From Salinimicrobium catena (GTDB taxonomy: Bacteria; Bacteroidota; Bacteroidia; Flavobacteriales; Flavobacteriaceae), in assembly GCF_900102915.1 (NCBI RefSeq), contig NZ_FNGG01000003.1, positions 244,295 through 308,294 of the forward strand: DNA of 64,000 nucleotides, read 5' to 3'. Positions within the stretch are counted from its first letter, which is position 1, and every line of letters begins with the position of its first letter. The position numbers and the translations under genes were made by a program. The notes beneath the pieces are model-generated. The model saw nothing but the letters and a program-made list of their open reading frames with translations, had not been told where the DNA came from and did no database searches. Shown piece by piece: positions 1,752-60,200 of this stretch.

Positions 1752-1825
1752 TAAATTTACTATGACCCAGCCATTTATAATATGATATATGTCATTCGGA
1801 AAGGGCTGAGTATCGGTTAATTTTG
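1752..1825. promoter_or_regulatory. Bidirectional promoter with shared Fnr/Crp-like operator
   Basis: The operator TGAT-ATAT-GTCA is at 1783-1794 (centre 1788.5). On the plus strand a perfect TAnnTTTG -7 element, TAATTTTG, begins at 1818, 29.5 bp from the operator centre. On the minus strand TAAATTTA begins at 1759, also exactly 29.5 bp away. This matches class II Crp/Fnr activation (operator near -41.5). It would drive the exporter operon to the right and the membrane protein and ppsA to the left. Confidence 0.7.
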
Positions 1826-1839
1826 GGAAAAGATTTTGT

Positions 1840-2925
1840 ATGGTTCGGTTGCTGCACGCAATTTTTCTAATGTTCCTGCTTATTTCCTGCGGAAATGAGC
1901 AGGAAAAGACCTATCCCGTTAAAACCGGAATTACAGAATCGGTCTATTCTTCGGTGACCATACAGCCCGATAGTCTTTACCAGGCTTACGCCCCGGTTAG
2001 CGGGCTGTTGGACGAAAACCTGGTAGAAGAGGGTGACCTGGTGGCCAAAGGGGAGGTGATCGCGCAGATCATCAACACCAGCCCAAAACTTGCCACAGAA
2101 AATGCCCGTGCCGCTCTGGACCTGGCTAAGAAAAATTATCGTGGAAGTTCAGGGATACTCAGCAGCATAGAAGAAGAACTGAAGGCAGCAAGGCTCAAGT
2201 ATAAAGATGATTCCATTAATTATTACCGGCAGGAGAAATTATGGGCACAGGGGATAGGGTCTAAAGCCACTTTTGAGTCCAGGAAGCTGGCTTACGAGCT
2301 TTCATCCAATTCGCTTGAGTTGCTTCAGAAAAAGTATTCACGAACCGAAGATGAACTGCAAACCCAACTGGAGCAGGCAGAGAACACTTACCGACTTGCC
2401 CTGGTAAACACCAGGGATTTTTCGGTGACCAGCAAGATAAACGGGAAAGTCTACGCTCTGCATAAAAATCCCGGCGAGTTGATCACTTCTTCCCAGCCCC
2501 TGGCATCAATAGGAAAAGAGGAGGATTTCGTGATTGAAATGCTGGTAGATGAAGTGGATATAGTGAGGGTAAAGGTAGGACAACCCGTTCTTCTCACCTT
2601 AGATGCCTACGGAGATCACGTTTTTGAGGCCGAGGTAAGCAAGATCTATCCTGAAAAAGATGAACGCAACCAGACCTTCCTGGTTGAAGCCCTTTTTACG
2701 GAAGCACCTGAGGTGTTGTACCCCGGCCTTTCTGGAGAGGCCAATATCCTGACTGCAAAAAAAGACAGCACTTTGGTGATTCCCAGGGCGTATCTGGTGG
2801 GGAAGAATAAAGTAAAGACCAAAGATGGAGAGGTACAGGTGACTGTCGGCCTGGAGAGCCTGGATTCCGTAGAGATCCTGGAAGGGATCACTGCAGAAAC
2901 CCTCATTTATAAGCCAAAGGAATGA
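1840..2925 (+). CDS. HlyD/MacA-type periplasmic adaptor lipoprotein of an ABC exporter
   Basis: A 361-residue membrane-fusion protein. The N-terminus is a lipoprotein signal (FLMFLLISC, Cys17 the likely lipidated residue), so it is anchored by lipid rather than by a helix. A beta-barrel/lipoyl region (DENLVEEGDLVAKGEVIAQI, about 55-75) is followed by a long alpha-hairpin coiled coil (about 80-185), a second lipoyl half (NGKVYALHKNPGELI) and a barrel domain to the end. Adaptors of this family link an inner-membrane transporter to an outer-membrane channel. It overlaps the permease gene by 4 bases (ATGA), so the two are translationally coupled. No TolC-like channel gene is nearby. The substrate cannot be told from the sequence. 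Confidence 0.88.
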   Translation: MVRLLHAIFLMFLLISCGNEQEKTYPVKTGITESVYSSVTIQPDSLYQAYAPVSGLLDENLVEEGDLVAKGEVIAQIINTSPKLATENARAALDLAKKNYRGSSGILSSIEEELKAARLKYKDDSINYYRQEKLWAQGIGSKATFESRKLAYELSSNSLELLQKKYSRTEDELQTQLEQAENTYRLALVNTRDFSVTSKINGKVYALHKNPGELITSSQPLASIGKEEDFVIEMLVDEVDIVRVKVGQPVLLTLDAYGDHVFEAEVSKIYPEKDERNQTFLVEALFTEAPEVLYPGLSGEANILTAKKDSTLVIPRAYLVGKNKVKTKDGEVQVTVGLESLDSVEILEGITAETLIYKPKE

Positions 2926-4184
2926 TTCAGAGGTCGGTCATAATGAGCATCGCCAAAACCCACCTGCTTAGCAAGCTGAAGCAGACGATAATCGCTGCCC
3001 TGGGTGTCACGTTTGGCATTGGTTCATATATCACGCTGGTGAGCTTTATGACCGGACTTAACAACATGCTGGACGACCTTATTTTAAATCAGACCCCACA
3101 CATCCATATTTATAATGAGATACAGCCGTCAAAGCAGCAGCCCGTAGATATTTATGAGGCTTTGAGCGGTTCTTTAAATATGGTGAGGTCCATCAAACCA
3201 AAGCAGACTCAAAAAAAGATCCACAATGCGCAACCGCTGATCGATCTTTTAGAGAAGGACCCTCGGGTGAGGGGCGCTTTGCCACAGGTGAAGACGCAGA
3301 TATTTTATATCGCCGGGCCCATAGACCTGGGAGGAAACCTAACCGGGGTAAATATTCTGCAGGAAGCGGAACTCTCAAATCTTGGTGACTACATAGTTGA
3401 GGGAAGTCCGCAAGACCTTGAAAATACCGCCAATGCGATCATTCTTGGTTCCGGCGTAGCAGAAAAGATGTCCCTTGAAATAGGGGAAAGGGTTCAGGTG
3501 AATACGGTGCAGGGAGAGCTTTTCCCGCTTAAAGTGGTCGGGATCTACCAGAGCGGAATTTCAGATATTGATAATATACAGAGCTATACCAACCTTAAAA
3601 CCGCGCAGAAGATCCTGGGGCAGCCTGAAAATTACATCACAGACATAAACGTTAAACTTTATGATACAGATGACGCTGTTGGTTTGGCAAAGAAGATAGA
3701 GGAACAATACGGGCTACGAGCTGTAGATGTGCAAACGGCCAATGCGCAGTTCGAAACGGGAAATACGGTAAGGAATCTCATTTCCTACTCGGTATCGGTG
3801 ACTTTGCTGCTGGTGGCAGGTTTTGGGATCTACAATATCCTGAATATGCTTATCTACGAAAAAATGAACGATATAGCCATTTTGAAGGCGACAGGTTTTA
3901 CGGGCAGGGATGTGCAATGGGTATTTATGAGCCAGGCTCTTATCATTGGGATCATTGGCGGGGTCACCGGGTTGTTGGTCGGGTACCTGCTTTCGGTGGT
4001 GATAAGCAATACACCTTTTGAGACAGAGGCATTGCCCACCATAGAGACCTATCCGGTGAATTTTGATCCGTGGTTCTATATCATCGGGATCAGTTTTGCA
4101 ATAGTTGCCACTTTCCTTGCCGGATATCTTCCCTCTAAAAGAGCGAAAAAAATAGATCCGGTTAGGATCATAAATCGATTATAA
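2922..4184 (+). CDS. FtsX/MacB-type ABC transporter permease
   Basis: A 420-residue permease of the FtsX/LolCE/MacB type. One membrane helix near residues 20-45 is followed by a large periplasmic domain (about 46-285) and three C-terminal helices (about 290-312, 335-360 and 385-408). It ends with the typical positively charged SKRAKKIDPVRIINRL tail. Its start overlaps the adaptor stop by 4 bases, and the ATPase gene follows 5 bases after its own stop. Such mechanotransmission permeases move lipids, lipoproteins, peptides or drugs out of the inner membrane. The MacA-like adaptor favours an exporter of MacAB type over lipoprotein sorting (LolCDE). Confidence 0.9.
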   Translation: MIQRSVIMSIAKTHLLSKLKQTIIAALGVTFGIGSYITLVSFMTGLNNMLDDLILNQTPHIHIYNEIQPSKQQPVDIYEALSGSLNMVRSIKPKQTQKKIHNAQPLIDLLEKDPRVRGALPQVKTQIFYIAGPIDLGGNLTGVNILQEAELSNLGDYIVEGSPQDLENTANAIILGSGVAEKMSLEIGERVQVNTVQGELFPLKVVGIYQSGISDIDNIQSYTNLKTAQKILGQPENYITDINVKLYDTDDAVGLAKKIEEQYGLRAVDVQTANAQFETGNTVRNLISYSVSVTLLLVAGFGIYNILNMLIYEKMNDIAILKATGFTGRDVQWVFMSQALIIGIIGGVTGLLVGYLLSVVISNTPFETEALPTIETYPVNFDPWFYIIGISFAIVATFLAGYLPSKRAKKIDPVRIINRL

Positions 4185-4189
4185 GCAGG

Positions 4190-4864
4190 ATGGAAAACAT
4201 ACTCGAAGCCAGGAATATCAACAAACATTTTAAAAAGCCGGTACTTTTTCACGTGCTGAAGGATATCTCTTTTTCGGTGAAAGAGGGGGAATTCGCCTCT
4301 ATTATGGGAAAATCTGGCTGTGGAAAGTCCACGTTGCTTTATGTGCTTTCTACCATGGATACAGATTATGAAGGCCAGCTGTTCCTGCACGGGGAACTTG
4401 TTTCGGGCCAGCCTGCAGACAAGCTTGCTTACATAAGGAACAAGCACATAGGTTTCGTGTTTCAGTTCCATTATCTTTTAGCTGAATTCACCGTACTGGA
4501 AAATGTGATGCTGCCGGCCCGGAAGCTGGCCGAAAGATCCTACGAGGAAATTGAGCAGAAGGCCATGGAGAAACTACAGATCCTTGGAATTGACAAACTC
4601 GCTCTGAAAAAGGCATCCCAAATTTCGGGCGGGGAGAAACAAAGGGTCGCCATCGCACGGGCACTTATCAACGATCCCGTCATTATCATGGGAGATGAGC
4701 CAACGGGGAACCTCGACAGTCATAATTCAGAGAACGTTTTCAATATTTTTAGAGAACTCAGCGATGAGCAGGGACTATCCCTGCTAATTGTAACTCACGA
4801 CCAGGATTTCGCCGACAAGACCGATCGCATCATTCAAATGGAAGACGGCAGGATCTTAGCCTGA
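4190..4864 (+). CDS. ABC transporter ATP-binding subunit (MacB/LolD family)
   Basis: A 224-residue cytoplasmic ATPase of normal length for the LolD/MacB-NBD family. Visible motifs in order: Walker [11 protein letters not shown]-loop [16 protein letters not shown] signature ISGGEKQR, Walker [14 protein letters not shown] and switch histidine LLIVTHD. It powers the permease encoded just upstream; adaptor, permease and ATPase form a compact three-gene operon. The ATG at 4190 is preceded by GCAGG. The stop codon TGA overlaps an Fnr-like operator (4862-4873) that appears to start a new promoter for the next gene. Confidence 0.93.
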
Positions 4865-4904
4865 TATTTGTCATTTTTATAACCCTTTGCATCAGCTATC
4901 TTTA
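4862..4904 (+). promoter_or_regulatory. Fnr/Crp-like operator and -7 element for the DUF6064 gene
   Basis: The operator TGAT-ATTT-GTCA is at 4862-4873 (centre 4867.5), overlapping the stop codon of the ABC ATPase gene. The -7 element TATCTTTA (TAnnTTTG with the last base changed) starts at 4897, exactly 29.5 bp from the operator centre. Transcription should begin near 4910, just ahead of the ATG at 4923. Confidence 0.65.
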
Positions 4905-4922
4905 AAAGGTAACTCTTTGGTC

Positions 4923-5633
4923 ATGCCTTTTACTTCAGATGAATTCCTCAACCTGTTCGAAGAATACAATCTTTCTTTGTGGCCGCTGCAAATGCTGCTT
5001 TATCTTCTCGGCATCTTTGCCATCACCTTTATTATGATAAGAAAAAGAACAGAAGGAGTGGCGGTCAATGTAGCATTGGCTATACTTTGGTTCTGGATGG
5101 GAGCTGTATATCACCTGCTATATTTTAGTACCATTAATTCCCTTGCCTTCCTGTTTGGAATTTTTTTCATTATTCAATCGGCAATATTTATCTGGAGCGG
5201 GGTTTTGGGAAAACAGCTGGTGTATAGGTGGAAACTGGATATTAAAGGCATCGTAGGATTTCTGTTCGTGATATTTTCATTCCTGGTTTATCCATTTTTA
5301 TCTGCTTTTTTCGGCCATTCCTATCCTCAGACTCCCACCTTCGGGCTTCCGTGCCCCACGACCATTTTTACCTTCGGAATTTTATTGTTCTCGGCAAAAA
5401 AGCTTCCGTGGTATATCTTTATTATTCCCTTGCTGTGGAGTTTCATCGGCTTTTCCGCAGCTCTTAATCTGGATATGAAAGAGGATTACAGCCTTCTGGT
5501 GGCCGGAATTACAGGGGCCTTGTTCCTTATCTTTTCGAAGTATCCGAAGAACAATGGGAGGGAAGTCAGCCTTAAAAAAAAGCTTTTTATTCTTCATCTT
5601 TTTCGTCTCCCTCTTCCTTACTATGCAGAATGA
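4923..5633 (+). CDS. DUF6064 family integral membrane protein
   Basis: A 236-residue polytopic membrane protein with about seven helices. The start MPFTSDEFLNLFEEYNLSLWPLQ matches the usual N-terminus of the DUF6064 family, so I chose the ATG at 4923 over the in-frame ATG at 4887; the predicted transcription start near 4910 also excludes the earlier one. A conserved PTFGLPCPTTIFTFGILL segment precedes the last helices. No function is established for the family as far as I know. The gene is convergent with the universal stress protein gene, and their 3' ends overlap by 47 bp (5587-5633). Confidence 0.85.
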   Translation: MPFTSDEFLNLFEEYNLSLWPLQMLLYLLGIFAITFIMIRKRTEGVAVNVALAILWFWMGAVYHLLYFSTINSLAFLFGIFFIIQSAIFIWSGVLGKQLVYRWKLDIKGIVGFLFVIFSFLVYPFLSAFFGHSYPQTPTFGLPCPTTIFTFGILLFSAKKLPWYIFIIPLLWSFIGFSAALNLDMKEDYSLLVAGITGALFLIFSKYPKNNGREVSLKKKLFILHLFRLPLPYYAE

Positions 5634-6450
5634 ATAGGGGAATCGTTGTGGAATAAATGATCTTTGAAAGATTCGAACCAAAAAGCCGCTCAAGGAATTC
5701 TTCTTTTTTGACAGGCAGAATATTCATGTCAATTTCCATGGACTGCACAAAGGTGTTGATGGCTTCATTGACGGGAACGTCGCTCACCTTATGGTAGGAA
5801 GGATTATAGATCTCAAAATGCTGTTTTAAAATCATCTCTTCCTCGGCTTCTGCTTCAGCATCGGCATCGGTTTTTGTGATCTTCAGAATGTGTAAACTGA
5901 AGGAATGGTTGCCGATCAGCTTCAATAATGGCTGAAGAGCTTCTTTTTCGAATTCAACCGTTTGGTCCAGGCTCAGCAATAATTGCCGAAGGGAATGGAA
6001 AGTGGCATTTTCGGGAATGATCAGCAAAGGCGAATCTACCTTCCTGATCACTCTAAGGGTGTGGCTTCCAAAGATCCTTTCCTGGGCATCAGAAACCCCA
6101 TCGGTGCCCATTGCAATAAGGTCGATATTTTCGGTTTCGATGAATTTATTGATGGAGTCGGTAAAAACATTGTAATCTGTTATAGCATCGTATTGAAAAT
6201 CTTCCCCGGCGCAATTTTTCTCCATTTTAGCAATGAGCTTGTCCAGTTTACGCTTGTTTTCTGAAATAAGGATGTCGTAGAGAGAGGCATCTGTAGAAGC
6301 CTGCATGAGATCTCCGCTGGTATAGCTGGAAGATTTGTAAACGCTTAAAAGATGAAAAGTACAGGAGGTGCCTTTGAAAAGGTTCAGCACATACAAAATG
6401 GCATTTGTGGAGCATTTTGAGAAATCGGTGGGCAAAAGGATGTTTTTCAT
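5587..6450 (-). CDS. Universal stress protein, tandem UspA domains
   Basis: A 287-residue cytoplasmic protein with two Usp-type domains. The first (1-150) starts MKNILLPTDFSKCSTNAI and carries an IDLIAMGTDGVSD...IFGSHTLRVIRKVDSPLLII nucleotide-binding-type segment. The second (about 150-280) is more diverged and lacks a clear G-x2-G-x9-G(S/T) motif. UspA proteins help cells survive starvation, hypoxia and oxidative stress. An Fnr-like operator lies 50 bp upstream, suggesting induction by low oxygen or redox change. The C-terminus is very acidic (EEGDEKDEE) and overlaps the 3' end of the convergent DUF6064 gene. Confidence 0.92.
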   Translation of the reverse strand: MKNILLPTDFSKCSTNAILYVLNLFKGTSCTFHLLSVYKSSSYTSGDLMQASTDASLYDILISENKRKLDKLIAKMEKNCAGEDFQYDAITDYNVFTDSINKFIETENIDLIAMGTDGVSDAQERIFGSHTLRVIRKVDSPLLIIPENATFHSLRQLLLSLDQTVEFEKEALQPLLKLIGNHSFSLHILKITKTDADAEAEAEEEMILKQHFEIYNPSYHKVSDVPVNEAINTFVQSMEIDMNILPVKKEEFLERLFGSNLSKIIYSTTIPLFILHSKEEGDEKDEE

Positions 6451-6469
6451 CGCTACAGGATTTATACCT

Positions 6470-6512
6470 TTAATTTAAGGAATACTCTTAAGTGCAGCAA
6501 TGACAGCCGTCA
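6470..6512 (-). promoter_or_regulatory. Fnr/Crp-like operator and -7 region for the universal stress protein gene
   Basis: The operator TGAC-AGCC-GTCA is at 6501-6512 (centre 6506.5) between rluE and the usp gene. On the minus strand TAAATTAA begins at 6477, again 29.5 bp from the operator centre. This -7 box is the weakest of the set (TTAA in place of TTTG). The start codon is at 6450. Confidence 0.55.
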
Positions 6513-6518
6513 ATTTTA

Positions 6519-7091
6519 TTAGTAGCTGAATTCTTCCACTTCCCTTACTTCTCCTGCATCCATATTATCAAGCAGTTCGTTGCCGACCCTTACCCTGACA
6601 AGCCGCAAGGTTGGAAAACCTACAGCGGCGGTCATCTTCTTTACCTGGCGGAATTTTCCTTCTGTAAGAGTCACACTTATCCAGCTGGTTGGGCCATGCC
6701 TTTCATCCCTTATCTTTTTGGCGCGTTCTGGAAAACTGGGAGAGGAGGAGAGTATGGAGGCTTTGCAGGGATTGGTCATGTATTTTTTCCCCTGGATCCC
6801 GATTTCCACTCCGCAGGTCATTTTCTCTATGGCCGTTTCATCTATGAGACCATCCACCTGAACATAGTATTCCTTTTCTACCTTCCTGCCGGTGATATCT
6901 GCGCTTACCTTGCCATCGGTGGTAAGTAAGAGGAGGCCTTCAGAATCCTGGTCAAGCCTTCCTATAGACATGGTGGCCTCAGGGAAATCAAATAGTTCCC
7001 CCAGTAACTTTTTGTTCTTCCGGGTCTTTTGATTGGTGATGAATTGACTAAGATAACCGTAGGGTTTGTATATCTTGAAATGTCGATGCAC
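6519..7091 (-). CDS. rluE: 23S rRNA pseudouridine synthase RluE-type
   Basis: A 190-residue pseudouridine synthase of the RsuA/RluB/RluE group without an S4 domain, as in RluE. It isomerises a uridine of 23S rRNA (U2457 in E. coli). The catalytic aspartate lies in GRLDQDSEGLLLLTTDG; the KIYKPYGYLSQF start and the GKFRQVKKMTAAVGFPTLRLVRVRVG segment are typical. No ATG is available: the reading frame opens at a TAG at about 7107-7109, so the start is probably the GTG at 7091. The gene stands alone, with the usp promoter between it and the next gene. Confidence 0.9.
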   Translation of the reverse strand: MHRHFKIYKPYGYLSQFITNQKTRKNKKLLGELFDFPEATMSIGRLDQDSEGLLLLTTDGKVSADITGRKVEKEYYVQVDGLIDETAIEKMTCGVEIGIQGKKYMTNPCKASILSSSPSFPERAKKIRDERHGPTSWISVTLTEGKFRQVKKMTAAVGFPTLRLVRVRVGNELLDNMDAGEVREVEEFSY

Positions 7092-7232
7092 TTTCTTGTT
7101 TTGCTGCTAAAATAAGAAAAGAGATGAGATTGGATTAAAGCAGTAAAACAGCAGATTATTTGAGAATTTATAAATGTAAAGTGTACAGATAATGCTGATT
7201 TTCAGTAAAAAAATGTAAAATTCTGAAAAAAT

Positions 7233-7248
7233 TCACCAAAAGTGGGTA
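7233..7248. promoter_or_regulatory. Inverted repeat resembling TACCCAnAAATGGGTA
   Basis: TCACCAAAAGTGGGTA matches 12 of 16 positions of the palindrome at 8106-8121. It lies between the stop of the first PAS-LuxR gene and the start of rluE. It is probably a binding site of one of the two adjacent regulators, but its target is unclear. Confidence 0.4.
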
Positions 7249-7276
7249 TTGTGTGAAGTCTCTTATTCCTCTATTT

Positions 7277-8026: not shown

Positions 8027-8105
8027 ATCTTAAAATTTTTGGTTAGACATAGCTGGCCACTACATCCTGCAGGAAAGTCGAGCTAGATTTAGGGGTAATG
8101 GTTAG

Positions 8106-8121: not shown

Positions 8122-8135
8122 ATTGTTACAAAATT

Positions 8136-8792: not shown

Positions 8793-8836
8793 AGTAATGG
8801 CAAAGAAAGTAAATTCGTTCTTCCTGAAATCACTAA

Positions 8837-30309: not shown

Positions 30310-31281
30310 TTAATTCCAGTCCAGCAACCTCTTTTCGCCTTCAATGTTCTTGATGTCGGTAATGTCCTGTGACATCTCGATCACGCCGCGATATTTCTTT
30401 TCTTTGTCCCGCACCGCGAAATACCTGATGTAGATCAACCGGCCCTTGTAATTGATCCAGAATGAAGATTCGTTCTTCGTTCCTTTCCTGAATTCTTCGA
30501 GGATCCTCAACACGGTGCCCACACTTTTTGGAGGGTGGCAGAATTTAACTTCACGGCCAATGATCCCGGCGCTTCGTGGGAATACCCGTTCCTCGCCCCG
30601 GTTGTAGAAGATCACTTTATCATTTTCATCAACATAGGTGAGGTCCAGCGGCATGGTCTTTAACAGCAGGTTCACCTGTTCCACCGTCATATACCCTTCA
30701 TCATAATGATGCCGGTCTTCAAGTGAAAAGGAGAGTTCCCGCTTGATATGGTCCTGGCTGGGGTGAACGTATTCTTCCTGTTCTTTGGGGAAAGCAGCGG
30801 GAGTTTCAGCCAGCATCCAGCCGATCTCTTCTTCGCCTTTGCGCACCTGTTTCCAGTCCTCTTCCGTCAGCATATTAAGGGCATTGGGAAAGAGCACATT
30901 TTGCTCTACCAGCAGCAGCCTGTAAATCCCGCTTATTAAATATTGCGAATCACGTTGCACCTCTTCGAAGTCCCTTGCTTCGATCTTCTTCCGAAGCAAT
31001 CTGAACTGCTCCCTCAGGTTATCTTGAAAAGACCACATTCCCTGAGAGGGCCCGTTCCATCCGCGTTTCTCCAAATACGGAAATAACTGATTCTCCTTTC
31101 GCTCAAACCGTCTTTCAATTCCCGACAGCTGATTGAAGATGTTATAGAATTTTTGGGCCTCGGCTTCAGGGTCTGTTTGCTGCAGTTCTTCGGCCAGTTT
31201 CTGGATCAGTGCCTTTTCCTCAAAATATATGCTCACAGGATGTCCCTGCGGAAGGTTCGAAATGTCTATGGTTTCTGTCAT
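30310..31281 (-). CDS. DUF438-type protein: degenerate hemerythrin domain plus PAS domain
   Basis: About 323 residues. The N-terminal half (about 1-160) is the hemerythrin-like part of DUF438 proteins (GHPVSIYFEEKALIQKL, RKENQLFPYLEKRGW, NVLFPNALNMLTEEDW). The C-terminal half (about 210-315) is the PAS domain (LDLTYVDENDKVIFYNRG, FCHPPKSVG, YIRYFAVRDKEKKYRGVIEM). Several expected iron-binding His are replaced: RRFERKEN where HYxRKEN is usual, and MWSFQD where MWxxHD is usual. Start chosen at the ATG at 31281 because the predicted -7 element (31306-31313) lies downstream of the alternative TTG. Such proteins sense O2, NO or redox state; the gene has its own Fnr-like promoter. Confidence 0.85.
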   Translation of the reverse strand: MTETIDISNLPQGHPVSIYFEEKALIQKLAEELQQTDPEAEAQKFYNIFNQLSGIERRFERKENQLFPYLEKRGWNGPSQGMWSFQDNLREQFRLLRKKIEARDFEEVQRDSQYLISGIYRLLLVEQNVLFPNALNMLTEEDWKQVRKGEEEIGWMLAETPAAFPKEQEEYVHPSQDHIKRELSFSLEDRHHYDEGYMTVEQVNLLLKTMPLDLTYVDENDKVIFYNRGEERVFPRSAGIIGREVKFCHPPKSVGTVLRILEEFRKGTKNESSFWINYKGRLIYIRYFAVRDKEKKYRGVIEMSQDITDIKNIEGEKRLLDWN

Positions 31282-31305
31282 TTTGATCTGATTTATTTTC
31301 AGGAA

Positions 31306-31348
31306 CAAAGAAAACAGAACCTTTTGGTCTGAATTATGACCCTGGTCA
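31306..31348 (-). promoter_or_regulatory. Fnr/Crp-like operator and -7 element for the DUF438 gene
   Basis: The operator TGAC-CCTG-GTCA is at 31337-31348 (centre 31342.5). On the minus strand TTTCTTTG (one mismatch to TAnnTTTG) begins at 31313, 29.5 bp from the centre. It points left to the DUF438 start at 31281. Confidence 0.65.
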
Positions 31349-31392: not shown

Positions 31393-31435
31393 TGATCTGT
31401 GTCATATTTTACCTTTTTCATAGTTTTTTTATTTG
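31393..31435 (+). promoter_or_regulatory. Fnr/Crp-like operator and -7 element for the U32/ferredoxin operon
   Basis: The operator TGAT-CTGT-GTCA is at 31393-31404 (centre 31398.5), inside a longer palindrome ATATGA-N6-TCATAT. On the plus strand TTTATTTG (one mismatch to TAnnTTTG) begins at 31428, 29.5 bp from the centre. It points right to the U32 gene at 31495. A separate operator for the divergent gene lies 56 bp away. Confidence 0.65.
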
Positions 31436-31494: not shown

Positions 31495-32727
31495 ATGGAA
31501 AGAATGGAATTGATGGCCCCGGCGGGGAATTTTGAATCTTTACAGGCAGCCCTTGACAACGGGGCAGATTCGGTTTATTTTGGGGTAGAACAATTAAACA
31601 TGAGGGCGCGTGCCTCTATCAATTTTACCATAGATGACCTGGCGGAGATCGTAGAGCGCTGTGAAGCAAAAAAGGTTCGCACCTATCTTACCCTCAATAC
31701 CATTATCTACGACCACGATCTTTCCCTCATCAAGCACCTGCTCTCTAAAGCAAAGGAAGCGGGAGTGACTGCCGTGATCGCATCAGACCAGGCGGTGATC
31801 GCCTCGGCCAGGAGTATGGGCATAGATATTCACATTTCCACCCAGCTCAATATCACCAATGTGGAAACGGTGAAGTTCTACAGCCTTTTTGCCGAGACCA
31901 TGGTCTTGTCCAGGGAGCTTAGCCTTAGGCAGGTAAAAAAGATCACAGAGCAGATCCAAAAAGAGAATATTACAGGCCCTTCAGGAAAGCCGGTAAAGAT
32001 AGAGATCTTTGGCCACGGTGCGCTTTGCATGGCGGTCTCCGGAAAATGTTATCTAAGCCTTCATTCCCATAATTCTTCGGCCAATCGCGGCGCCTGCAAA
32101 CAAAACTGCCGGAAAAAATATATGGTCATTGACCAGGAATCTGGTTTTGAGATCGAGATCGACAACGAATACATGATGTCCCCAAAAGACCTGTGCACCA
32201 TCAATTTTTTGGATGAGGTCATGGAAGCGGGAGTGCAGGTGTTGAAAATTGAAGGAAGAGGGCGTGCCCCCGAATATGTGGCAACCGTTACCCGGGCCTA
32301 CAGGGAAGCCATTGATGCCTGGTATGAAGGAACTTATTCCGAAGAAAAGGTGGAAAAATGGATGGGAGAATTGAGTACCGTCTACAACCGCGGATTCTGG
32401 AGCGGATATTACCTGGGCCAGAAAATGGGGGAGTGGAGCAAAACTTCAGGCTCACAGGCCACTCAGAAAAAAGTATATGTGGGTAAGGGGATGCATTATT
32501 TTCCAAAAGCCGGAATTGCCGAATTCCAGATCGAGGCCTATGACATCAAAAAGGGCGACAGGATCCTGGTGACAGGTCCCACCACAGGGGCTAAGGAGTT
32601 TGACCTGGATGAAATGTTCGTGAACGACGCGGCTGCAGAAAAAGCATCTAAAGGGGATAGCTGTACCATAAAATTACCTTTTAGGGTAAGACTTTCAGAC
32701 AAACTATATAAACTTGTTGAGGCCTAA
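31495..32727 (+). CDS. Peptidase U32 family protein (Fe-S tRNA hydroxylase TrhP/YegQ-like)
   Basis: A 410-residue U32-family protein, close in length to the YegQ/TrhP and RlhA-type members. It starts MELMAPAGNFESLQAALDNG (the second ATG at 31504 is also possible). The conserved signature EIFGHGALCMAVSGKC is followed by further Cys in GACKQNCRKKY; these four Cys bind an Fe-S cluster in the family. Members hydroxylate tRNA or rRNA uridine/cytidine, or hydroxylate ubiquinone precursors, rather than acting as proteases. The C-terminal beta-barrel part (about 320-410) ends the protein. The gene shares an Fnr-like promoter with a ferredoxin it overlaps by one base (TAATG). Confidence 0.9.
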   Translation: MERMELMAPAGNFESLQAALDNGADSVYFGVEQLNMRARASINFTIDDLAEIVERCEAKKVRTYLTLNTIIYDHDLSLIKHLLSKAKEAGVTAVIASDQAVIASARSMGIDIHISTQLNITNVETVKFYSLFAETMVLSRELSLRQVKKITEQIQKENITGPSGKPVKIEIFGHGALCMAVSGKCYLSLHSHNSSANRGACKQNCRKKYMVIDQESGFEIEIDNEYMMSPKDLCTINFLDEVMEAGVQVLKIEGRGRAPEYVATVTRAYREAIDAWYEGTYSEEKVEKWMGELSTVYNRGFWSGYYLGQKMGEWSKTSGSQATQKKVYVGKGMHYFPKAGIAEFQIEAYDIKKGDRILVTGPTTGAKEFDLDEMFVNDAAAEKASKGDSCTIKLPFRVRLSDKLYKLVEA

Positions 32728-48401: not shown

Positions 48402-48696
48402 GACTTCTGGTTTTTAGATAGTTAAAAAATGATATTAATTACTTTTAATTTACTGATTTTTAAGAATATGGGTTCTTATAGGGAGCGGATTTTCGTTGAA
48501 AGCGGCCTATTCATCGATCTAAGACCGGAACCAAGTTGTAGGTCATTTTGGATGATCAGAGGTTCAGCAGGATCAAAAAAAAATTTTATATTAGAGTGGT
48601 AATAGGTTGTAAATCTGTTTTTTACCTCACCCCGGTTCTACCCCCTGCGATTTTAACCTTTTGATAAAAAGAATAACCAACCTAAATATACACGTT

Positions 48697-52936: not shown

Positions 52937-52963
52937 ATAAAAATCAAATACCCACGAACTTAC

Positions 52964-54623: not shown

Positions 54624-54753
54624 AAAATTGGGGTTCTAAAAGACATTATAAATATAAAAATACCAATTGGTTTAACAGGCTTTTTCGCATGGCTTAATCG
54701 CGGTTGGGTTTTGATTCTTCTGAAAGTCAGTAACATAAAACTGAATTAAAATA

Positions 54754-54780
54754 AAAACGGCTTTTGATAAAAGCCGTTTT
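54754..54780. terminator. Terminator after the SYLF gene
   Basis: AAAACGGCTTTT pairs perfectly with AAAAGCCGTTTT around a 3-base loop; T-runs exist in both directions. It directly follows the stop of the SYLF lipoprotein gene at 54793. Confidence 0.85.
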
Positions 54781-54792
54781 CTTTGGCTGGTT

Positions 54793-55332
54793 TTATAAGG
54801 GCCTGAAATCGAATTTTTGACCTCCTACCGAAATTCCTGCCATAGCGCCGGCTTTTGGAACAGTGACTATGGCTATACCGTCCTGAAATTCTATGTCTCC
54901 CGAAACCCCTTCGTCCAGCAGTACTGCCGATGCATTTGCCGAAAGTTCAAAGTTCCCATCCTTGAACCGCTGCAAAGCCGATGCACTTTCGAAAAAAAGG
55001 ATCTCCACAAAGGCCTTCCCGCCTAATTGAAATCCCACATCTACCTGTTTTAGATCGGCATAACCAATATGCCTGCCGTTCTCATATACGGCCCCGTTAC
55101 CCGAGGCGCCGCCCACTATGTAAGCTCCTTTTCCCACATTCGGAAAAATGGCATATCCCTGGGCTTCATCAAACATTCTTGCCGCGTTGGGATATTTTTC
55201 CCTTATCATTTCTCTTTCTTCGCGAACATCGTTCATTAGATCATCTCCGGTCTTTCCGGAGCCACATCCTGCCAGCCCTACGAACAGCAGGAACAGGAAC
55301 ACCGGGAGCATCTTTTGGCTTAAATTTTTCAT
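54793..55332 (-). CDS. SYLF (YSC84-type) domain lipoprotein
   Basis: A 179-residue lipoprotein: signal FLFLLFVGLAGC, then a lipid-binding SYLF domain covering the rest (AQGYAIFPNVGKGAYIVGGASGNG in two parts, VGFQLGGKAFVEILFF). SYLF domains bind phosphoinositides in eukaryotes; bacterial members are envelope proteins of unknown use. Single gene, ending at a strong hairpin. Confidence 0.92.
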   Translation of the reverse strand: MKNLSQKMLPVFLFLLFVGLAGCGSGKTGDDLMNDVREEREMIREKYPNAARMFDEAQGYAIFPNVGKGAYIVGGASGNGAVYENGRHIGYADLKQVDVGFQLGGKAFVEILFFESASALQRFKDGNFELSANASAVLLDEGVSGDIEFQDGIAIVTVPKAGAMAGISVGGQKFDFRPL

Positions 55333-55457
55333 CTCTAAAGCTGGTTTTGATTAGTACCCTTGAAGTTACTTACAGATGAGAAGAACCTTAGTTAAACAAA
55401 TGTTATTTTGAGAGGAAATATTGCCGATATTCTGCCGGAAAGGGTTAATGGACAAGG

Positions 55458-55595
55458 CTAAAGCCCTTTCTTCTTTTTCTCTTCTTTTTTCCTGGTTTTT
55501 CGCACCTGCTTTCGCAGCTGGATCACAGTAAATATGATCACTGCCAGCAGCACTGCACCACTTACTATCGCGTATCCTAACATGCTTCCAGTCAT
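55458..55595 (-). CDS. Small single-helix membrane protein with basic tail
   Basis: A 45-residue protein: one helix (about 5-27, MLGYAIVSGAVLLAVIIFTV) and a strongly basic cytoplasmic tail (RKQVRKTRKKEEKKKKGL). It starts at the ATG at 55595. It lies downstream of the DUF3307 gene on the same strand (28 bp after its stop), so it may belong to the SatD/DUF3307 operon. Confidence 0.55.
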   Translation of the reverse strand: MTGSMLGYAIVSGAVLLAVIIFTVIQLRKQVRKTRKKEEKKKKGL

Positions 55596-55623
55596 AGTTT
55601 CAAGTTATGAAAATAAGTACAGA

Positions 55624-56343
55624 TCAGCGCAGCAGGTTTTTGATGAAAAGGTAAAAAAGCCCTGTGGCTATTGCCAGACCAAAGCTCAGCAGAGTGCCGA
55701 TAAGCACGTATTCTGTTAATTTGCGGTCTTTTGCACGGGAAAGGTCACTGAACCTGAGAATGGATTTTGCCGCTATAAGCCAGCCAATGGCCGCCCACTG
55801 CTGCAGTACGATGAACCCGAAAACCAGGAGCCTTTCCAGCATCCCAATATATTTTCCCGCTTTGGGCAGGGAATCCTCTTCATTGTCTTCAGGAAGCTGC
55901 CAGCGGTCCATTAGCAGGCGCATGGCAATAGCCGAAACCGAGGTCACACTCAAAATCGACAACAGCAAGAGGAGGGAGGCCGGGGAAAAAATGAACCCGG
56001 TATTTATTTCAAAAGGATAATAAAAATAAACCACTCCACACAGTACGAGGACATGAGCAAGCTGGTCCAGCAGGAAGAGAAGATTATTGTTGTACCTGCC
56101 TTCCAGGTGTAGTTTGCCAAGGTCAATCAAAAAATGAGTGACAAGGATCCCTAAAAGACCTAACCAGTAAGTAAGATCGAACTGTAACAGGAGGAGCAAA
56201 GCAAGAGCATGGACTCCCAGGTGCAGGTACAGAGAGGCCGATCTTATTTTGCGCTGTCTTTTATCGCGTATCCAGCGGTCCGGTTGCAGCACAAAGTCTC
56301 CAAGAATATGAGCTAACAGTAGTTTTAGGGCAAAAGTGATCAT
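55624..56343 (-). CDS. DUF3307 membrane protein, partner of SatD
   Basis: A 239-residue membrane protein with about six helices. The N-terminus KLLLAHILGDFVLQPDRWIR is the DUF3307 signature; the family usually covers about 120 residues, so the second half (about 125-239, three helices) is an extension. The gene starts within the SatD stop (4-base overlap), meaning tight translational coupling. The function of DUF3307 is not known to me. Context suggests a membrane component controlled by SatD. Confidence 0.88.
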   Translation of the reverse strand: MITFALKLLLAHILGDFVLQPDRWIRDKRQRKIRSASLYLHLGVHALALLLLLQFDLTYWLGLLGILVTHFLIDLGKLHLEGRYNNNLLFLLDQLAHVLVLCGVVYFYYPFEINTGFIFSPASLLLLLSILSVTSVSAIAMRLLMDRWQLPEDNEEDSLPKAGKYIGMLERLLVFGFIVLQQWAAIGWLIAAKSILRFSDLSRAKDRKLTEYVLIGTLLSFGLAIATGLFYLFIKNLLR

Positions 56344-56939
56344 AAGCGGTTTATTCTTTTTTGGTAAAATTCTTCCAGTCGGGAAATCTCATCATAGGCT
56401 CCTCTTTTGAGGGCTTCACTCAGGCTGCTCTGAGATTTTCCCAGCATCTCTGCCAGTTCTGTCTGGTTTTTTGCAGGGTTTTCCAGGGCGGCCTGTATAG
56501 CTTCGGCTACTGTGGTACTCCAGTTGTTCATGGAGAGCAGCGCCAGGTCTAGCAGTAGGTTGAACAATTCGTCCTCTTCAGGATTGCCGGTAAAGATGCC
56601 CATGTTCTGCTTTTTTAGGGTATCAAATCCCTCCCCCGATCGTACAAAAGCAGAGCCGTTCGACTCGCTCACCTTCTTCGCCTTATGCTCGAGCTCTCCT
56701 AGGCCAATGGCGATGCGTACATCAAGGTTTTTTATTTTTTTTATGCCAGCCTTGATATGGACTGCTGCAAGAAGAGCTTTATCTGGGGAAATAGTGAGCT
56801 GAAAACTGTCACCACGATAGATCTCCCATTGCGAAGGATTATTCCCGTAGTGGGAAAGTATTTTCTTGAGTAAAGGCAACCATTGGGTAGCCGGTTGTTT
56901 TCGGGAGTTGACGATATCTCCTGTAATTACTGCTATCAT
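56340..56939 (-). CDS. SatD family protein: cyclase-like domain plus helix-turn-helix
   Basis: A 199-residue cytoplasmic protein of the SatD family. The N-terminal part (about 1-125) has the strand pattern MIAVITGDIVNSRK, WEIYRGDSFQLTI and VRIAIGLGELEHK. These line up in order with the metal-binding core of class III cyclases (FTDF, VGDAYM, RIGINTG), which suggests a palm-type nucleotide-binding fold. The C-terminal part (about 150-199) is a helix-turn-helix: NQTELAEMLGKSQSSLSEAL. It is coupled by a 4-base overlap to the DUF3307 membrane gene. TATCGG half-sites just upstream suggest autoregulation. The cyclase comparison is my inference. Confidence 0.85.
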   Translation of the reverse strand: MIAVITGDIVNSRKQPATQWLPLLKKILSHYGNNPSQWEIYRGDSFQLTISPDKALLAAVHIKAGIKKIKNLDVRIAIGLGELEHKAKKVSESNGSAFVRSGEGFDTLKKQNMGIFTGNPEEDELFNLLLDLALLSMNNWSTTVAEAIQAALENPAKNQTELAEMLGKSQSSLSEALKRGAYDEISRLEEFYQKRINRL

Positions 56940-56946
56940 GTGCTTA

Positions 56947-57023
56947 ATATCGGGTTTTTAAACGATATGAGCAAATATCGGAAAATTTTCAGATAAACAA
57001 ATTAATAGGATAAAAAGCCGATA
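56947..57023. promoter_or_regulatory. Repeated TATCGG/CCGATA half-sites before satD
   Basis: Half-sites ATATCGG at 56947-56953, CGATAT at 56963-56968, ATATCGG at 56975-56981 and CCGATA at 57018-57023. The middle pair forms a perfect inverted repeat CGATAT-N6-ATATCG. They sit directly upstream of the satD start codon (56939) and are a good candidate for the operator of SatD's own helix-turn-helix. Confidence 0.5.
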
Positions 57024-57119
57024 ATATAAGGCTTCGTGTGGATTAGGCGCCCTACAGCCGCCAATAAAAAATATTCAAAAAACACCCTGAAAATTTAATT
57101 TAACAGCAGTATTTTTTGT

Positions 57120-57127
57120 TAATTTTG
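57120..57127 (+). promoter_or_regulatory. -7 element next to the TPR histidine kinase start
   Basis: TAATTTTG is a perfect TAnnTTTG box, ending 4 bp before the ATG at 57132. Transcription would start at or very near the ATG, giving a leaderless or nearly leaderless mRNA. No clear -33 TTTG is seen. Confidence 0.45.
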
Positions 57128-57131
57128 TGTT

Positions 57132-59057
57132 ATGAATTTCCTAAGACACCCTATTTTCCTGGTTCTCAGTCTCCTTTTTTTTGTTACAGGCGGATGTGAG
57201 GAGCAAATTGAAGTGCAAGATCCTGAAAATGCGCCCTTAGAACCTGGTACTGCCGGTTATTATTACGAGCAGGGAATCAATACTTCAGACCTTGAAGAGA
57301 AACTACGCCTTTACAATGCGGGACTCGATGCGGTGAAGAGCAAAAAAGACACAAACTTTGTGGCACTCCTGGAGGGAAAGGTCTATGCATTGCAGGCAAT
57401 GGGCGATTATGAACGCAGTGAAAAATGGATCAAGGAGCTCATCAAAGCGGCAGAATTTCAGAAAGACACCTACTTTCTGGCCATGGGCTACTACCGCAAT
57501 TATAGAGTAGATCTAAAGCGGAACGATCTGGAACAGGCTTTTAAAAATGCATTTATTGCCCGGCAATTGAACCTTAGCATGGGAGATACAGCCCCGGCAG
57601 CGAGGCGCAGTTTTGACCTGGCTCACGTGCAGATCGATATGGGAGACTATCCGGGCTCACAGGAATCTGCGGCCGAGGCGCTACAGTATCTTAATCCGCG
57701 AAAAGACTCTATATTTATCAGTGCAGCTCATAATCTTATCGGCCTGGCCTATATGGACCAGGGGTTTAATGAAGATGCCATAAAAGAATTCAGGAACGCC
57801 CTTAGTTTCGCTGCCAGAAAAAGGGATAGCCTTACATTTCTTCACAATATTGCCATAGCTTACAAGAACCAGGAAAAATATGACGATGCCATCGAGATCC
57901 TCGAGGAATTGGCCTCTTCAAAAATTCCTGACACTGCCTCAAAAAGCCGATTCATAGATAATCTTGCTTACACCCGATGGCTGAGAGATTCCACAGAGCG
58001 GGTTGATTCCCTTTTCTTTCAGGCTTTAGCAATGAGGGAGCAGATCAAAGATACTTTAGGATTAAATACCAATTATTCTCACCTTACTCATTATTTTGAG
58101 AATAAGAACAAAGACCAGGCCCTAAAATATGCCCGGGCAAGTCTGGAAATGGCCGAAGCAACTTCGGTGGTTTCAGAAGTAAGCGCCTTAAAGAAATTGA
58201 TCTCCCTTACCAAAGGAAAAGAGAGAGAAAATTACGTGGAGAGATATATGTTTCTGCACGATAGTATCGACGAGGCAAACCTTAAGGCAAAGAACTATTT
58301 TGCCAAAATAAGGTTGGATGAAAAAAAGAAGCAGCAGGAGATCAACACTCTTGAAGAGATCAATTATAAGCAGGCGCTGGAGGCACAAAAACTGGAAAAC
58401 AGAAATTTGTTGAGTTCTTTTCTCGCTATTTTCATTGCACTTTCAGCCGCCATTCTTTTCTATTTCTTAAAGCAGAGGAGCAAAAGAGAAAGGATCAAGG
58501 GGATATACCTCACAGAAAGACGCATCTCCAAACGTATTCACGATGAGCTGGCCAATGACATGTACGATCTAATGAGCAGCATGGAGCAGGAAGCTTCTCG
58601 CGAAACAAAAGACAAACTGGCCAGGATCTACTATCGTACCCGTGATATTTCAAGGGAGAACAGCAGCATTGATACCGGCGCGGAATATATAGACAGCCTG
58701 GTGGCCATCATCAGCAGTCTTGCCGGCAAAGCCAGGATCATTTTGAAAGGGGAAAGATCGGTCAACTGGCAGCGACTGGAGGAGGAAAAGAAGATCGTGA
58801 TCTATCGGGTTTTGCAGGAGCTCATGGTCAACATGAAAAAGCACAGCGACGCACAATTCGTAGCCATCAGTTTTTCTACGGAAGGCAAATGGCTCAATAT
58901 TGATTATAAGGATAACGGGAAAGGCTGTGACGGCAGTTTGAAAAACGGGAACGGATTGATCAATGTAAGGAACCGGATCTCTTCGGTAGACGGAAAGATC
59001 GAGATAGGATCTGAAAAAGGAAAAGGCTTTAAGGTGAACATGCGCATCCCAGTCTAA
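57132..59057 (+). CDS. TPR sensor histidine kinase (NarX/DesK-type, HisKA_3)
   Basis: A 641-residue kinase. It has an N-terminal lipoprotein-like or signal segment (FLVLSLLFFVTGGC), TPR repeats (about 35-385), a coiled part, one membrane helix (about 432-450) and a cytoplasmic kinase. The phospho-His is in RRISKRIHDELANDMYDL; the HATPase part has NMKKHSDA, DNGKGCDGS and NGLINVRNRI. Kinases of this form usually signal to a LuxR-type response regulator, which is not adjacent. The TPR region lies outside the inner membrane and may bind peptides or proteins. Confidence 0.9.
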   Translation: MNFLRHPIFLVLSLLFFVTGGCEEQIEVQDPENAPLEPGTAGYYYEQGINTSDLEEKLRLYNAGLDAVKSKKDTNFVALLEGKVYALQAMGDYERSEKWIKELIKAAEFQKDTYFLAMGYYRNYRVDLKRNDLEQAFKNAFIARQLNLSMGDTAPAARRSFDLAHVQIDMGDYPGSQESAAEALQYLNPRKDSIFISAAHNLIGLAYMDQGFNEDAIKEFRNALSFAARKRDSLTFLHNIAIAYKNQEKYDDAIEILEELASSKIPDTASKSRFIDNLAYTRWLRDSTERVDSLFFQALAMREQIKDTLGLNTNYSHLTHYFENKNKDQALKYARASLEMAEATSVVSEVSALKKLISLTKGKERENYVERYMFLHDSIDEANLKAKNYFAKIRLDEKKKQQEINTLEEINYKQALEAQKLENRNLLSSFLAIFIALSAAILFYFLKQRSKRERIKGIYLTERRISKRIHDELANDMYDLMSSMEQEASRETKDKLARIYYRTRDISRENSSIDTGAEYIDSLVAIISSLAGKARIILKGERSVNWQRLEEEKKIVIYRVLQELMVNMKKHSDAQFVAISFSTEGKWLNIDYKDNGKGCDGSLKNGNGLINVRNRISSVDGKIEIGSEKGKGFKVNMRIPV

Positions 59058-59125
59058 ATCCTGATAGGTCTGCTTAATTGTCATTCATTTTTCTTATTTT
59101 CATTTTCATTAAAAATCATCTTCCT

Positions 59126-59674
59126 ATGCCTGTTATTTTACCTGTTAAGGGAATTGAGCCCAACATTGCTAAAAGTTGTTTTATAGCCGAAAATGCTACC
59201 ATTGTTGGTGATGTGGTGCTGGAAGAAGATTGTTCGGTATGGTTCACGGCAGTGATTCGCGGGGACGTGAATTCCATTCGCATTGGTAGTAAGAGTAACA
59301 TTCAGGACGGGGCGGTAATTCATTGCACTTATGAAAAAGCCGCCACTACGATTGGAAATAATGTTTCCATCGGCCACAGGGCCATTGTGCACGGGTGCAC
59401 CGTTCACGACAATGCCTTAATAGGAATGGGAGCCATAGTGATGGATCATGCCGAGGTTCAGGAAAATTGCATCATTGCAGCAGGGGCAGTGGTGCTCGAA
59501 AATACTGTTTGTGAAGCCGGCCATATTTATGCCGGGATCCCGGCTAAAAAGGTAAAGGAACTTTCCCCTCAGCAAATATCCAATCTCCAAAAGACCGCTC
59601 AAAATTACGTGATGTACAGCGAGTGGTTCGAAAATAGCGGGAAAGAGGATAATATTGATTACCTGAATTCCTGA
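59126..59674 (+). CDS. Gamma-carbonic-anhydrase-like hexapeptide protein
   Basis: A 182-residue left-handed beta-helix protein (PaaY/YrdA/CaiE type). Start chosen at the ATG at 59126; the longer frame from the TTG at 59078 adds a run unlike the family. Three putative zinc His lie in IQDGAVIHC, VSIGHRAI and VHGCTVHD, as in gamma-class carbonic anhydrases. Members are trimeric; some are active carbonic anhydrases, others thioesterase-like. Its stop is followed 2 bases later by the stop of a convergent small gene. Confidence 0.93.
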   Translation: MPVILPVKGIEPNIAKSCFIAENATIVGDVVLEEDCSVWFTAVIRGDVNSIRIGSKSNIQDGAVIHCTYEKAATTIGNNVSIGHRAIVHGCTVHDNALIGMGAIVMDHAEVQENCIIAAGAVVLENTVCEAGHIYAGIPAKKVKELSPQQISNLQKTAQNYVMYSEWFENSGKEDNIDYLNS

Positions 59675-59676
59675 AA

Positions 59677-59832
59677 TTACCGGGCGAACCAGAACAGGAA
59701 AACGACCAGTCCCAGGATCAGGATCCCGCCAAAAATAGACTGGCCCTTAAAGAACAACCAGTCCCAATTGATGTGAGCCATGTAAGTCTCAAGAACGTCT
59801 TTTCCTTTTAAGTGTTTTTCTCTTGCTTTCAT
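59677..59832 (-). CDS. Small single-helix membrane protein with INWDWL motif
   Basis: A 51-residue protein. A charged N-terminal part (KAREKHLKGKDVLETYMAH) is followed by INWDWLFFKGQS and one membrane helix (about 33-50: FGGILILGLVVFLFWF). It shares the INW(N/D)WL motif, its position before the helix and total length with the gene at 50249-50407, so I regard the two as paralogues. Convergent with the gamma-carbonic-anhydrase gene. Confidence 0.65.
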   Translation of the reverse strand: MKAREKHLKGKDVLETYMAHINWDWLFFKGQSIFGGILILGLVVFLFWFAR

Positions 59833-60157
59833 AATTTATGGTTGTTTGGTTGTAAGCAGAGAAAAACAATAATAATTCCGTTTTATTTCCCAAAAAATAT
59901 CTGGTCTTATATAAATATTAAGGTAATACTAATTATATAGCAATAAATTCAGGTCTGAAGCGGTTTATGCAGGTAAATTCCTGCATTGGGAATTACCAAC
60001 TTTTTAACACCCATGCATTAGTGCCGCGAGAATCCGGCTTTATTTTTCCACAGTTATGGGGAGGAATTATTGGATAAAAGTGTAGAAAATATCCACGATC
60101 TGCATAATATCCGGGTTGAAATTTTTTAAATTTTGCTCCAATTAAATTAGGATAAGA
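59833..60157. other. Intergenic region, 325 bp
   Basis: AT-rich spacer holding the promoter of the small INWDWL gene (minus strand). An imperfect inverted repeat, GGTAAATTCC-N6-GGGAATTACC, lies at 59972-59997. The Fnr-like promoter of the usp gene begins at 60158. No other gene is seen. Confidence 0.45.
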
Positions 60158-60200
60158 TGATCTTAATCATGATTCTCCTGCTTCTATTCGTATAGTTTCG
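60158..60200 (+). promoter_or_regulatory. Fnr/Crp-like operator and -7 element for the second usp gene
   Basis: The operator TGAT-CTTA-ATCA is at 60158-60169 (centre 60163.5). The -7 box TAGTTTCG (one mismatch to TAnnTTTG) begins at 60193, exactly 29.5 bp from the centre. The gene starts at 60229. Confidence 0.65.

Follow-up and report, generated by a model that had tools for sequence, protein, structure and literature searches.

A receiver–Crp/Fnr fusion protein and a PAS kinase as candidate controllers of a low-oxygen and stress regulon in Salinimicrobium catena

A 64,000-nucleotide stretch of the Salinimicrobium catena genome (the window; positions 244295–308294 of contig NZ_FNGG01000003.1, here C5, in a 3.26-Mb genome of 26 contigs) contains promoters in which a Crp/Fnr-type operator with the core TGAY-N4-RTCA stands at one fixed distance from the −7 element. 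Operators with this geometry are conserved in the promoters of relatives and co-localize with genes for a protein that joins a receiver domain to a Crp/Fnr module, which we call REC-CRP and which is paired in most loci with a PAS-domain histidine kinase. We consider it likely that these parts form a low-oxygen and stress regulon, run by the kinase and REC-CRP as a two-component pathway at class II-like operators.

The initial annotation of the window had placed six 12-mers of the form TGAY-N4-RTCA in promoter regions, at 1783, 4862, 6501, 31337, 31393 and 60158, all of which are present. It had also put the operator centre 29.5 bp from the −7 element in seven promoter directions (the first site being bidirectional), and this spacing is exact: 23 nucleotides (nt) separate the 12-mer from the 8-base element in 7/7 directions. 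Two more 12-mers, at 30426 and 51547, bring the total to eight; both are intragenic and have no TAnnTT-type element in register. The likeness of the elements to TAnnTTTG held only in part, with five of the seven directions fitting TAnnTT and the elements for 31337 and 31393 beginning with TT, which breaks the TA rule. Scores in the following list come from R1, a profile built from 93 promoters of relatives and including no sequence of this genome.

1783–1794, both directions in this genome: operator TGATATATGTCA, 12-mer; R1 25.6 bits (minus strand) and 17.9 bits (plus strand)
1818–1825, plus strand: −7 element TAATTTTG, HlyD/FtsX/ABC genes; gap 23 nt
1752–1759, minus strand: −7 element TAAATTTA, gene for a 128-amino-acid (aa) protein and probably also ppsA behind it; gap 23 nt
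4862–4873, plus strand: operator TGATATTTGTCA, 12-mer; R1 23.1 bits, E 6.8e-6 in the window
4897–4904, plus strand: −7 element TATCTTTA, DUF6064 gene; gap 23 nt
6501–6512, minus strand: operator TGACGGCTGTCA, 12-mer; R1 10.8 bits, weak
6470–6477, minus strand: −7 element TAAATTAA, universal stress protein (Usp) gene; gap 23 nt
31337–31348, minus strand: operator TGACCAGGGTCA, 12-mer; no R1 match
31306–31313, minus strand: −7 element TTTCTTTG, hemerythrin-PAS gene; gap 23 nt
31393–31404, plus strand: operator TGATCTGTGTCA, 12-mer; R1 14.2 bits, over model positions 2–41 only
31428–31435, plus strand: −7 element TTTATTTG, U32 gene; gap 23 nt
60158–60169, plus strand: operator TGATCTTAATCA, 12-mer; R1 13.2 bits
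60193–60200, plus strand: −7 element TAGTTTCG, Usp gene; gap 23 nt

Frequent 12-mers that happen to meet AT-rich look-alikes of the −7 element could in principle produce such a pattern by chance. The 12-mer is common in genomes that lack REC-CRP, and the count in the window is only borderline: dinucleotide shuffles of the window contain 3.85 on average and 4 of 100 reach eight, which makes density a weak argument. The register, not the density, is decisive for real operators. TAnnTT at gap 23 in 5 of 16 directions has a chance probability of about 2e-8 at the window's own hexamer frequency, and about 3e-7 when 12 directions are judged against the TAnnTT frequency of intergenic stretches. Single-gap histograms in three sets of sequences and the conservation of orthologous promoters, both given below, likewise contradict chance, to which we assign a negligible probability.

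At class II promoters, Crp and Fnr operators are centred at −41.5. The sigma-A −7 box of Flavobacterium psychrophilum, TAnnTTTG, occupies −12 to −5 in the part of the report consulted here (PMC9723704). Because the operator centre lies 29.5 bp from the box and the box of that species starts at −12, the operators would be centred at −41.5, a class II-like placement that borrows the box position from F. psychrophilum.

A genome-wide count gave 42 instances of the 12-mer followed at gap 23 by TAnnTT and none of a reversed control pattern, and 39 of the 42 in-register sites are intergenic according to our own gene calls, which are rough in 5-kb stretches. A larger region (C5:184295–348294, 164 kb) was selected by 12-mers alone, so that gaps from 0 to 59 could be tested without bias; its 30 12-mers gave 16 TAnnTT matches at gap 23 and between 0 and 3 at every other gap. 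All 16 are intergenic, and the 11 12-mers that fall in coding sequence include not one in register. The regulon first proposed for 58 kb is real and much larger, with 14 of the 42 sites concentrated in C5:215–251 kb (the C5 island) and 7 in C24:132–168 kb on a second contig. The base after RTCA is T in 14/14 sites of the island and in 21/28 of the others.

A search of the genome with HTH_Crp_2 returned five genes, two of which encode a receiver domain fused to a complete Crp/Fnr module. A plain Crp/Fnr protein encoded elsewhere had been expected as the regulator; the genes that co-localize with the operators instead encode these two fusions, one of them 21 kb left of the window.

C5:222326–223369: REC-CRP, 347 aa, 21 kb left of the window and within the operator cluster
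C24:131018–132073: REC-CRP, 351 aa, its start overlapping the end of the histidine kinase gene
C24:155388–155984: short Crp protein, 198 aa, in the C24 respiration cluster, a third candidate regulator

Both REC-CRP proteins exceed the cut-off for PF00027 (cNMP-type) and PF13545 (HTH_Crp), and PF00072 matches their receiver. D53, K105, E313 and R317 are invariant across 22 REC-CRP sequences; we take Asp53 to be the phospho-acceptor, Lys105 the receiver lysine, and Glu313 and Arg317 to lie in the recognition helix. An AlphaFold model shows a receiver followed by a Crp fold (mean pLDDT 83.9), and its low pTM of 0.46 leaves the mutual packing of receiver and Crp half undefined. All 50 Foldseek matches listed are Crp/Fnr-family proteins, FixK2 included. 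The output domain is Crp-type, with no GerE match in REC-CRP, and the FixJ model NF006900 matches the receiver only, below its cut-off. No full-length NCBIfam family was found (the best 25 of 99 and best 25 of 110 matches all fall below cut-off), nor a PDB chain spanning receiver and Crp half among the best 60 of 379 profile matches. Among the open-access papers searched by title or abstract start, none showed a receiver–Crp/Fnr fusion; an earlier description may exist. REC-CRP is doubled in this genome (C5 and C24) and in the relatives G007 and G031. The C5 copy forms one clade (support 100/100) with those of loci L062 and L064, all without an adjacent kinase; that is, the C5 type is an orphan duplicate.

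Relatives tie REC-CRP to the operators. Among 120 genomes sampled from the family, REC-CRP (threshold E 1e-40) occurs in 54 and the short Crp protein (threshold E 1e-20) in 26, with both in 17. The 20 kb around each of 20 REC-CRP genes from 16 relatives (400 kb) contain 127 12-mers and 93 matches at gap 23, compared with a mean of 3.5 at other gaps and at most 19, at gap 0, where TAnnTT abuts the operator. For comparison, 20 stretches of 20 kb taken arbitrarily from these 16 genomes yielded 18 12-mers and 3 matches at gap 23, while other gaps averaged 0.4 and never exceeded 2. Of 22 REC-CRP genes, 20 have an in-register operator that starts 19–83 bases beyond the matched frame (L073 and L077 are the exceptions). 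The next same-strand gene matched in this genome is a Usp gene in 16 and an Hsp20 gene in 2 of 18 such relatives' loci, although in one of the two Hsp20 loci, L064, the Hsp20 match lies 770 bases away and unmatched frames may intervene. In this genome, the gene after REC-CRP is Usp on C24 and Hsp20 on C5. The T after RTCA is nearly invariant in the relatives' 93 sites.

R1 gave 47 matches in this genome at E up to 1, the best of all being window positions 1751–1796. Its best window matches are 1783 in both directions and 4862 (E 1e-6 to 3e-4), followed by 31393 (14.5 and 14.2 bits, partial), 60158 (13.2) and 6501 (10.8); a stretch without a 12-mer, 48412–48439, scores 11.3 bits, above 6501. 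R1 was then compared with the presence of REC-CRP in genomes at least 90% complete and at least 2.6 Mb long, leaving out the 16 used for training and scoring no more than 50 candidates in each. The median number of R1 matches is 31 in 35 held-out genomes with REC-CRP and 21 in 39 without it (p 1.8e-5, kinship ignored). The excess of AATGAY-N4-RTCATT over control averages +1.4 with REC-CRP and −1.1 without (p 0.001, kinship ignored). A clean separation by R1 of genomes with and without REC-CRP, which would indicate exclusive ownership of the operator, was not obtained: only the median shifts, and we reject such ownership.

A different assignment is that the short Crp protein is the main occupant of the window sites and that REC-CRP acts only near its own gene. 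Several in-register operators do lie in the C24 neighbourhood of the short Crp gene, and the cores at 31337 and 31393 are GC-richer, as is commoner outside the C5 island. The palindrome TATGAY-N4-RTCATA also coincides with the short Crp start, or precedes it by a few bases, in G102, G026, G093, G036 and G119, five of the seven short-Crp genomes for which sites were listed. Yet the short Crp protein is the rarer of the two (26/120 against 54/120, at the thresholds above), in-register density around REC-CRP is also high in genomes that lack it, such as G110, G108, G056 and G028, and palindrome excess follows REC-CRP (AATGAY, p 0.001) and not the short Crp protein for either palindrome (AATGAY p 0.59, TATGAY p 0.996). 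We regard this assignment as unlikely for the window as a whole. The position of the TATGAY palindrome at the short Crp start suggests self-repression.

Even with REC-CRP as the principal regulator, the earlier assumption of one regulator for all sites was not established, given the short Crp gene in the C24 cluster and the GC-richer cores at 31337 and 31393. In-register cores are AT-rich in the C5 island and GC-richer elsewhere (Fisher p 0.008, groups set post hoc). Because core GC differs by region and the TATGAY palindrome stands at short Crp starts, we assign the sites separately: those at 1783, 4862 and 6501 belong, with fair confidence, to REC-CRP, on the basis of the AT-rich cores of the island, and those at 31337 and 31393 may be short Crp sites or shared. 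Two simpler markers were tried. A division into operator classes by outer base (TCATT versus TCATA) gave Fisher p 0.008 here with post hoc groups, yet the two forms number 38 and 35 in the relatives' REC-CRP loci, and we reject the outer base as the marker of a particular regulator. The second marker, inner GC content, gave Fisher p 0.008 for those groups as well, but differences in base composition between genomes confound it.

The window genes with these promoters are the following.

1–1329, minus strand: ppsA (PPDK_N, PEP-utilizers), continuing past the left end of the window
1348–1734, minus strand: 128-aa protein without a Pfam match; similar proteins lie near REC-CRP and Usp genes in G110, G038 and G025
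1840–2925, plus strand: HlyD-type membrane fusion protein
2943–4184, plus strand: MacB/FtsX-type ABC permease
4190–4864, plus strand: ABC transporter ATPase
4923–5633, plus strand: DUF6064 protein
5587–6450, minus strand: universal stress protein
30310–31308, minus strand: hemerythrin-PAS protein
31495–32727, plus strand: U32 protein; nearest NCBIfam models TrhP and UbiU, both below cut-off
60229–61032, plus strand: universal stress protein

TrhP and UbiU are enzymes linked with oxygen-independent hydroxylation. Orthologous promoters were inspected over 330 bases upstream of each start. Each of the nine same-genus hemerythrin-PAS orthologues found (the window's own excluded) has the operator in register, with variable inner bases and with TTTCTTTG or TTTATTTG as the gap-23 element; the two more distant orthologues have none. 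A second operator comparable in orientation to the one at 31393 occurs in 1/9. The TTG start of the hemerythrin-PAS gene as called overlaps its −7 element; orthologue matches begin at residues 2–16, and the true start therefore probably lies further inside the gene. For HlyD, 4/4 same-genus orthologues carry the in-register operator, although the reverse direction of the 1783 site is kept in 0/4. In two further members of the family, the operator has one mismatch and is followed at gap 23 by TTATTTTG or TTACTTTG, and a full operator in the opposite orientation stands 96–99 bases further upstream; an orthologue at 32% identity has no operator.

The kinase gene adjoins REC-CRP in 18 of the 20 relatives' loci, L062 and L064 being without it, and encodes a PAS-HisKA-HATPase protein. 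In this genome the kinase shows no hydrophobic stretch of membrane-spanning look. Searched against the PDB (E up to 0.001), its PAS domain matched 15 sequences, 13 of them named FixL, DosP or heme-PAS/YddU; the other two are a multi-sensor kinase and a weakly matching light-receptor/FixL chimaera. The DosP and FixL matches reach E values of 1e-14 to 5e-12 with a histidine aligned, which we take to be the heme ligand of both proteins. Of 32 kinase rows, 30 have this histidine (L073 and the non-adjacent L064 hit lack it) and 23 the distal arginine. A heme-PAS is thus the probable identity of the domain, and binding of heme and a response to oxygen would follow by analogy. In L063:10828–12095, the kinase gene of G007 lies in two frames, its first part in a different frame from the rest.

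The genes near these operators are of the oxygen and redox type that had been proposed. In the C5 island, in-register operators precede Usp genes followed by genes for Mrr-like and beta-CASP nucleases; Hsp20; an alpha/beta hydrolase with a phosphoribosyltransferase; an SDR protein; a PepSY-like protein; a P-type cation ATPase; a small protein followed by MlaE, an ABC ATPase and MlaD; ppsA behind its small protein; the HlyD/FtsX/ABC exporter; and DUF6064. A row of PfkB, a second P-type ATPase, a HAD-trehalose phosphatase and GH65 (C5:234570–242288, L003) lies beside an operator at C5:234558, and in the relative G108 the PfkB gene adjoins an in-register operator. Elsewhere in the genome, operators that are not all in register lie near NorB, a CcoI-type ATPase, copper nitrite reductase with a cytochrome c part, cbb3 oxidase, YceI, HemN, ferredoxin, pyruvate:ferredoxin oxidoreductase, Rrf2, cytochrome c, citrate synthase, hemerythrin and Usp genes. 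The C24 copy of REC-CRP, beside its kinase, is itself near denitrification and cbb3 genes. In F. psychrophilum, cbb3 oxidase and heme synthesis rise under oxygen limitation, as the consulted part of that report describes (PMC9723704).

An Fnr-like core and geometry and redox-type targets would also fit control by a canonical, oxygen-sensing iron–sulphur Fnr. Fnr proper has four cysteines for a 4Fe–4S cluster and recognizes TTGAT-N4-ATCAA. When the sequences of the five HTH_Crp_2 proteins of this genome were read, none had the Fnr-type cysteine set. The Fnr operator is not matched by the core TGAY-N4-RTCA found here, and A predominates at the outer position of the half-site, where TTGAT has T. 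Control by such an Fnr is accordingly very improbable. Class II promoters of Escherichia coli Crp and Fnr share with the promoters described here the dimer symmetry, a recognition-helix Glu and Arg four residues apart and probably the centre at −41.5; in S. catena, by contrast, the half-site is ATGAY, no cAMP or iron–sulphur input is expected and the −7 box is the Bacteroidota TAnnTTTG.

Closer parallels come from two-component oxygen responses. FixL is a kinase with a heme-PAS, and the output domain of FixJ is a NarL-type HTH. Like the proposed pathway, the rhizobial FixL–FixJ–FixK2 cascade comprises, in the portion of the account used here, an oxygen-responsive kinase, a receiver protein and a Crp/Fnr-type activator with cbb3 and denitrification targets, but there FixJ activates a separate fixK2 gene, whereas receiver and Crp/Fnr half are one protein here (PMC9104804). 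The same portion describes FixK2 as active in vitro without an identified effector, with the box TTG(A/C)-N6-(T/G)CAA (PMC9104804). The operators here differ from this box in the outer base. In mycobacteria, DosR is NarL-type and DosS and DosT sense through a GAF heme. DosS/DosT–DosR of Mycobacterium tuberculosis resembles the proposed pair in joining a heme-containing kinase to a response regulator, according to the sections drawn on (PMC4090907, PMC4082495), and the DosR regulon table as consulted includes Usp genes, HspX, PfkB, CtpF, OtsB1 and the ferredoxin fdxA (PMC4090907). Pfam counterparts of this set occur within the C5 island or among the genes at C24 operators, the PfkB row being not strictly in register; DosR itself belongs to a different phylum and uses a different DNA site. 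An Anr/Fnr-type protein controls the low-oxygen-activated (lxa) locus of Burkholderia cenocepacia. This locus, linked with limited oxygen, likewise contains six Usp genes, a heat shock protein, a phosphofructokinase and reductases, and the part of its description consulted here does not mention a receiver fusion (PMC6127331).

In a wider set, at least 14 loci contain near full-length relatives of REC-CRP, including loci from Chitinophaga, Mucilaginibacter, Arcticibacter, Sphingobacterium and Jiulongibacter; the other 66 of the 80 loci listed (L096–L161) matched mainly in the receiver part and were set aside. The Flavobacteriia part of the near full-length set repeats the single-gap histogram of the other sets. 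In the eight loci taken as outside Flavobacteriia (98,950 bases; two are named only Bacteroidetes), six matches fall at gap 45, whereas other gaps average 0.4 and do not exceed 3. Four of the six gap-45 operators have a second, imperfect TGAY-starting site exactly 22 bp downstream, and in Arcticibacter, Mucilaginibacter and Sphingobacterium the tandem pair lies directly behind the REC-CRP gene and before a hemN-like gene. Loci with gap-45 operators and a second, mostly imperfect site are L089, L092, L093 and L095 (and L081). A tandem pair at −63.5 and −41.5 in the sister classes is a post hoc observation and a lead only.

Several points weigh against a REC-CRP regulon of this kind. Similarity of the PAS domain does not prove heme, and the ligand role of its histidine is carried over from FixL and DosP. 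The C5 copy of REC-CRP has no kinase beside it. The R1 search of the window misses the 31337 site, which we retain because it is conserved in all nine same-genus orthologues. Strong R1 matches also occur without REC-CRP, and the best match in all 120 genomes, E 6.8e-6, is in one of these, G059; because genomes lacking REC-CRP have good R1 matches, the operator and promoter design must be used by other Crp/Fnr proteins too. The excess of TATGAY-N4-RTCATA is not significantly associated with REC-CRP (p 0.08), and raw 12-mer counts over the 120 genomes do not visibly follow it; we dropped these counts as evidence, the reversed pattern being a poor control for coding bias. The PfkB row is not strictly in register: its forward element is TATTCTTA, not TAnnTT, and its called start is 12 bases from the operator, with a second in-frame ATG at 99, so that operator control of this row is uncertain. 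Outside Flavobacteriia, gap 23 gave a single match in the eight loci.

With these points weighed, we still favour control by the kinase and REC-CRP. The soluble kinase, through its FixL/DosP-type heme-PAS, would sense oxygen and phosphorylate REC-CRP; phosphorylated REC-CRP would bind promoters carrying one operator, the core TGAY-N4-RTCA usually followed by T and centred at −41.5, and activate them. Heme binding, oxygen as the signal, direct binding of the operators and the direction of control are what we infer from the arrangement described. The Crp/Fnr half probably needs no small-molecule effector, and the FixJ and FixK steps of rhizobia would be united in one protein. In S. catena, one copy would act beside its kinase near the denitrification and cbb3 genes and the orphan copy within the C5 stress island, low oxygen switching on a dormancy-like programme. 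The full picture, in which a heme-PAS kinase and a one-piece FixJ–FixK protein acting at −41.5 run a DosR-like hypoxic survival set of the Bacteroidota, reached independently, with one operator in Flavobacteriia, a tandem pair in sister classes and an orphan duplicate settled in the stress island of this genus, seems to us only slightly favoured over its negation.

If true, Flavobacteriaceae and other Bacteroidota would gain an oxygen regulon complete with regulator, sensor, operator and promoter geometry, the stress set of mycobacterial dormancy would recur under a different type of regulator, and a three-step cascade could collapse into a kinase and one DNA-binding protein.

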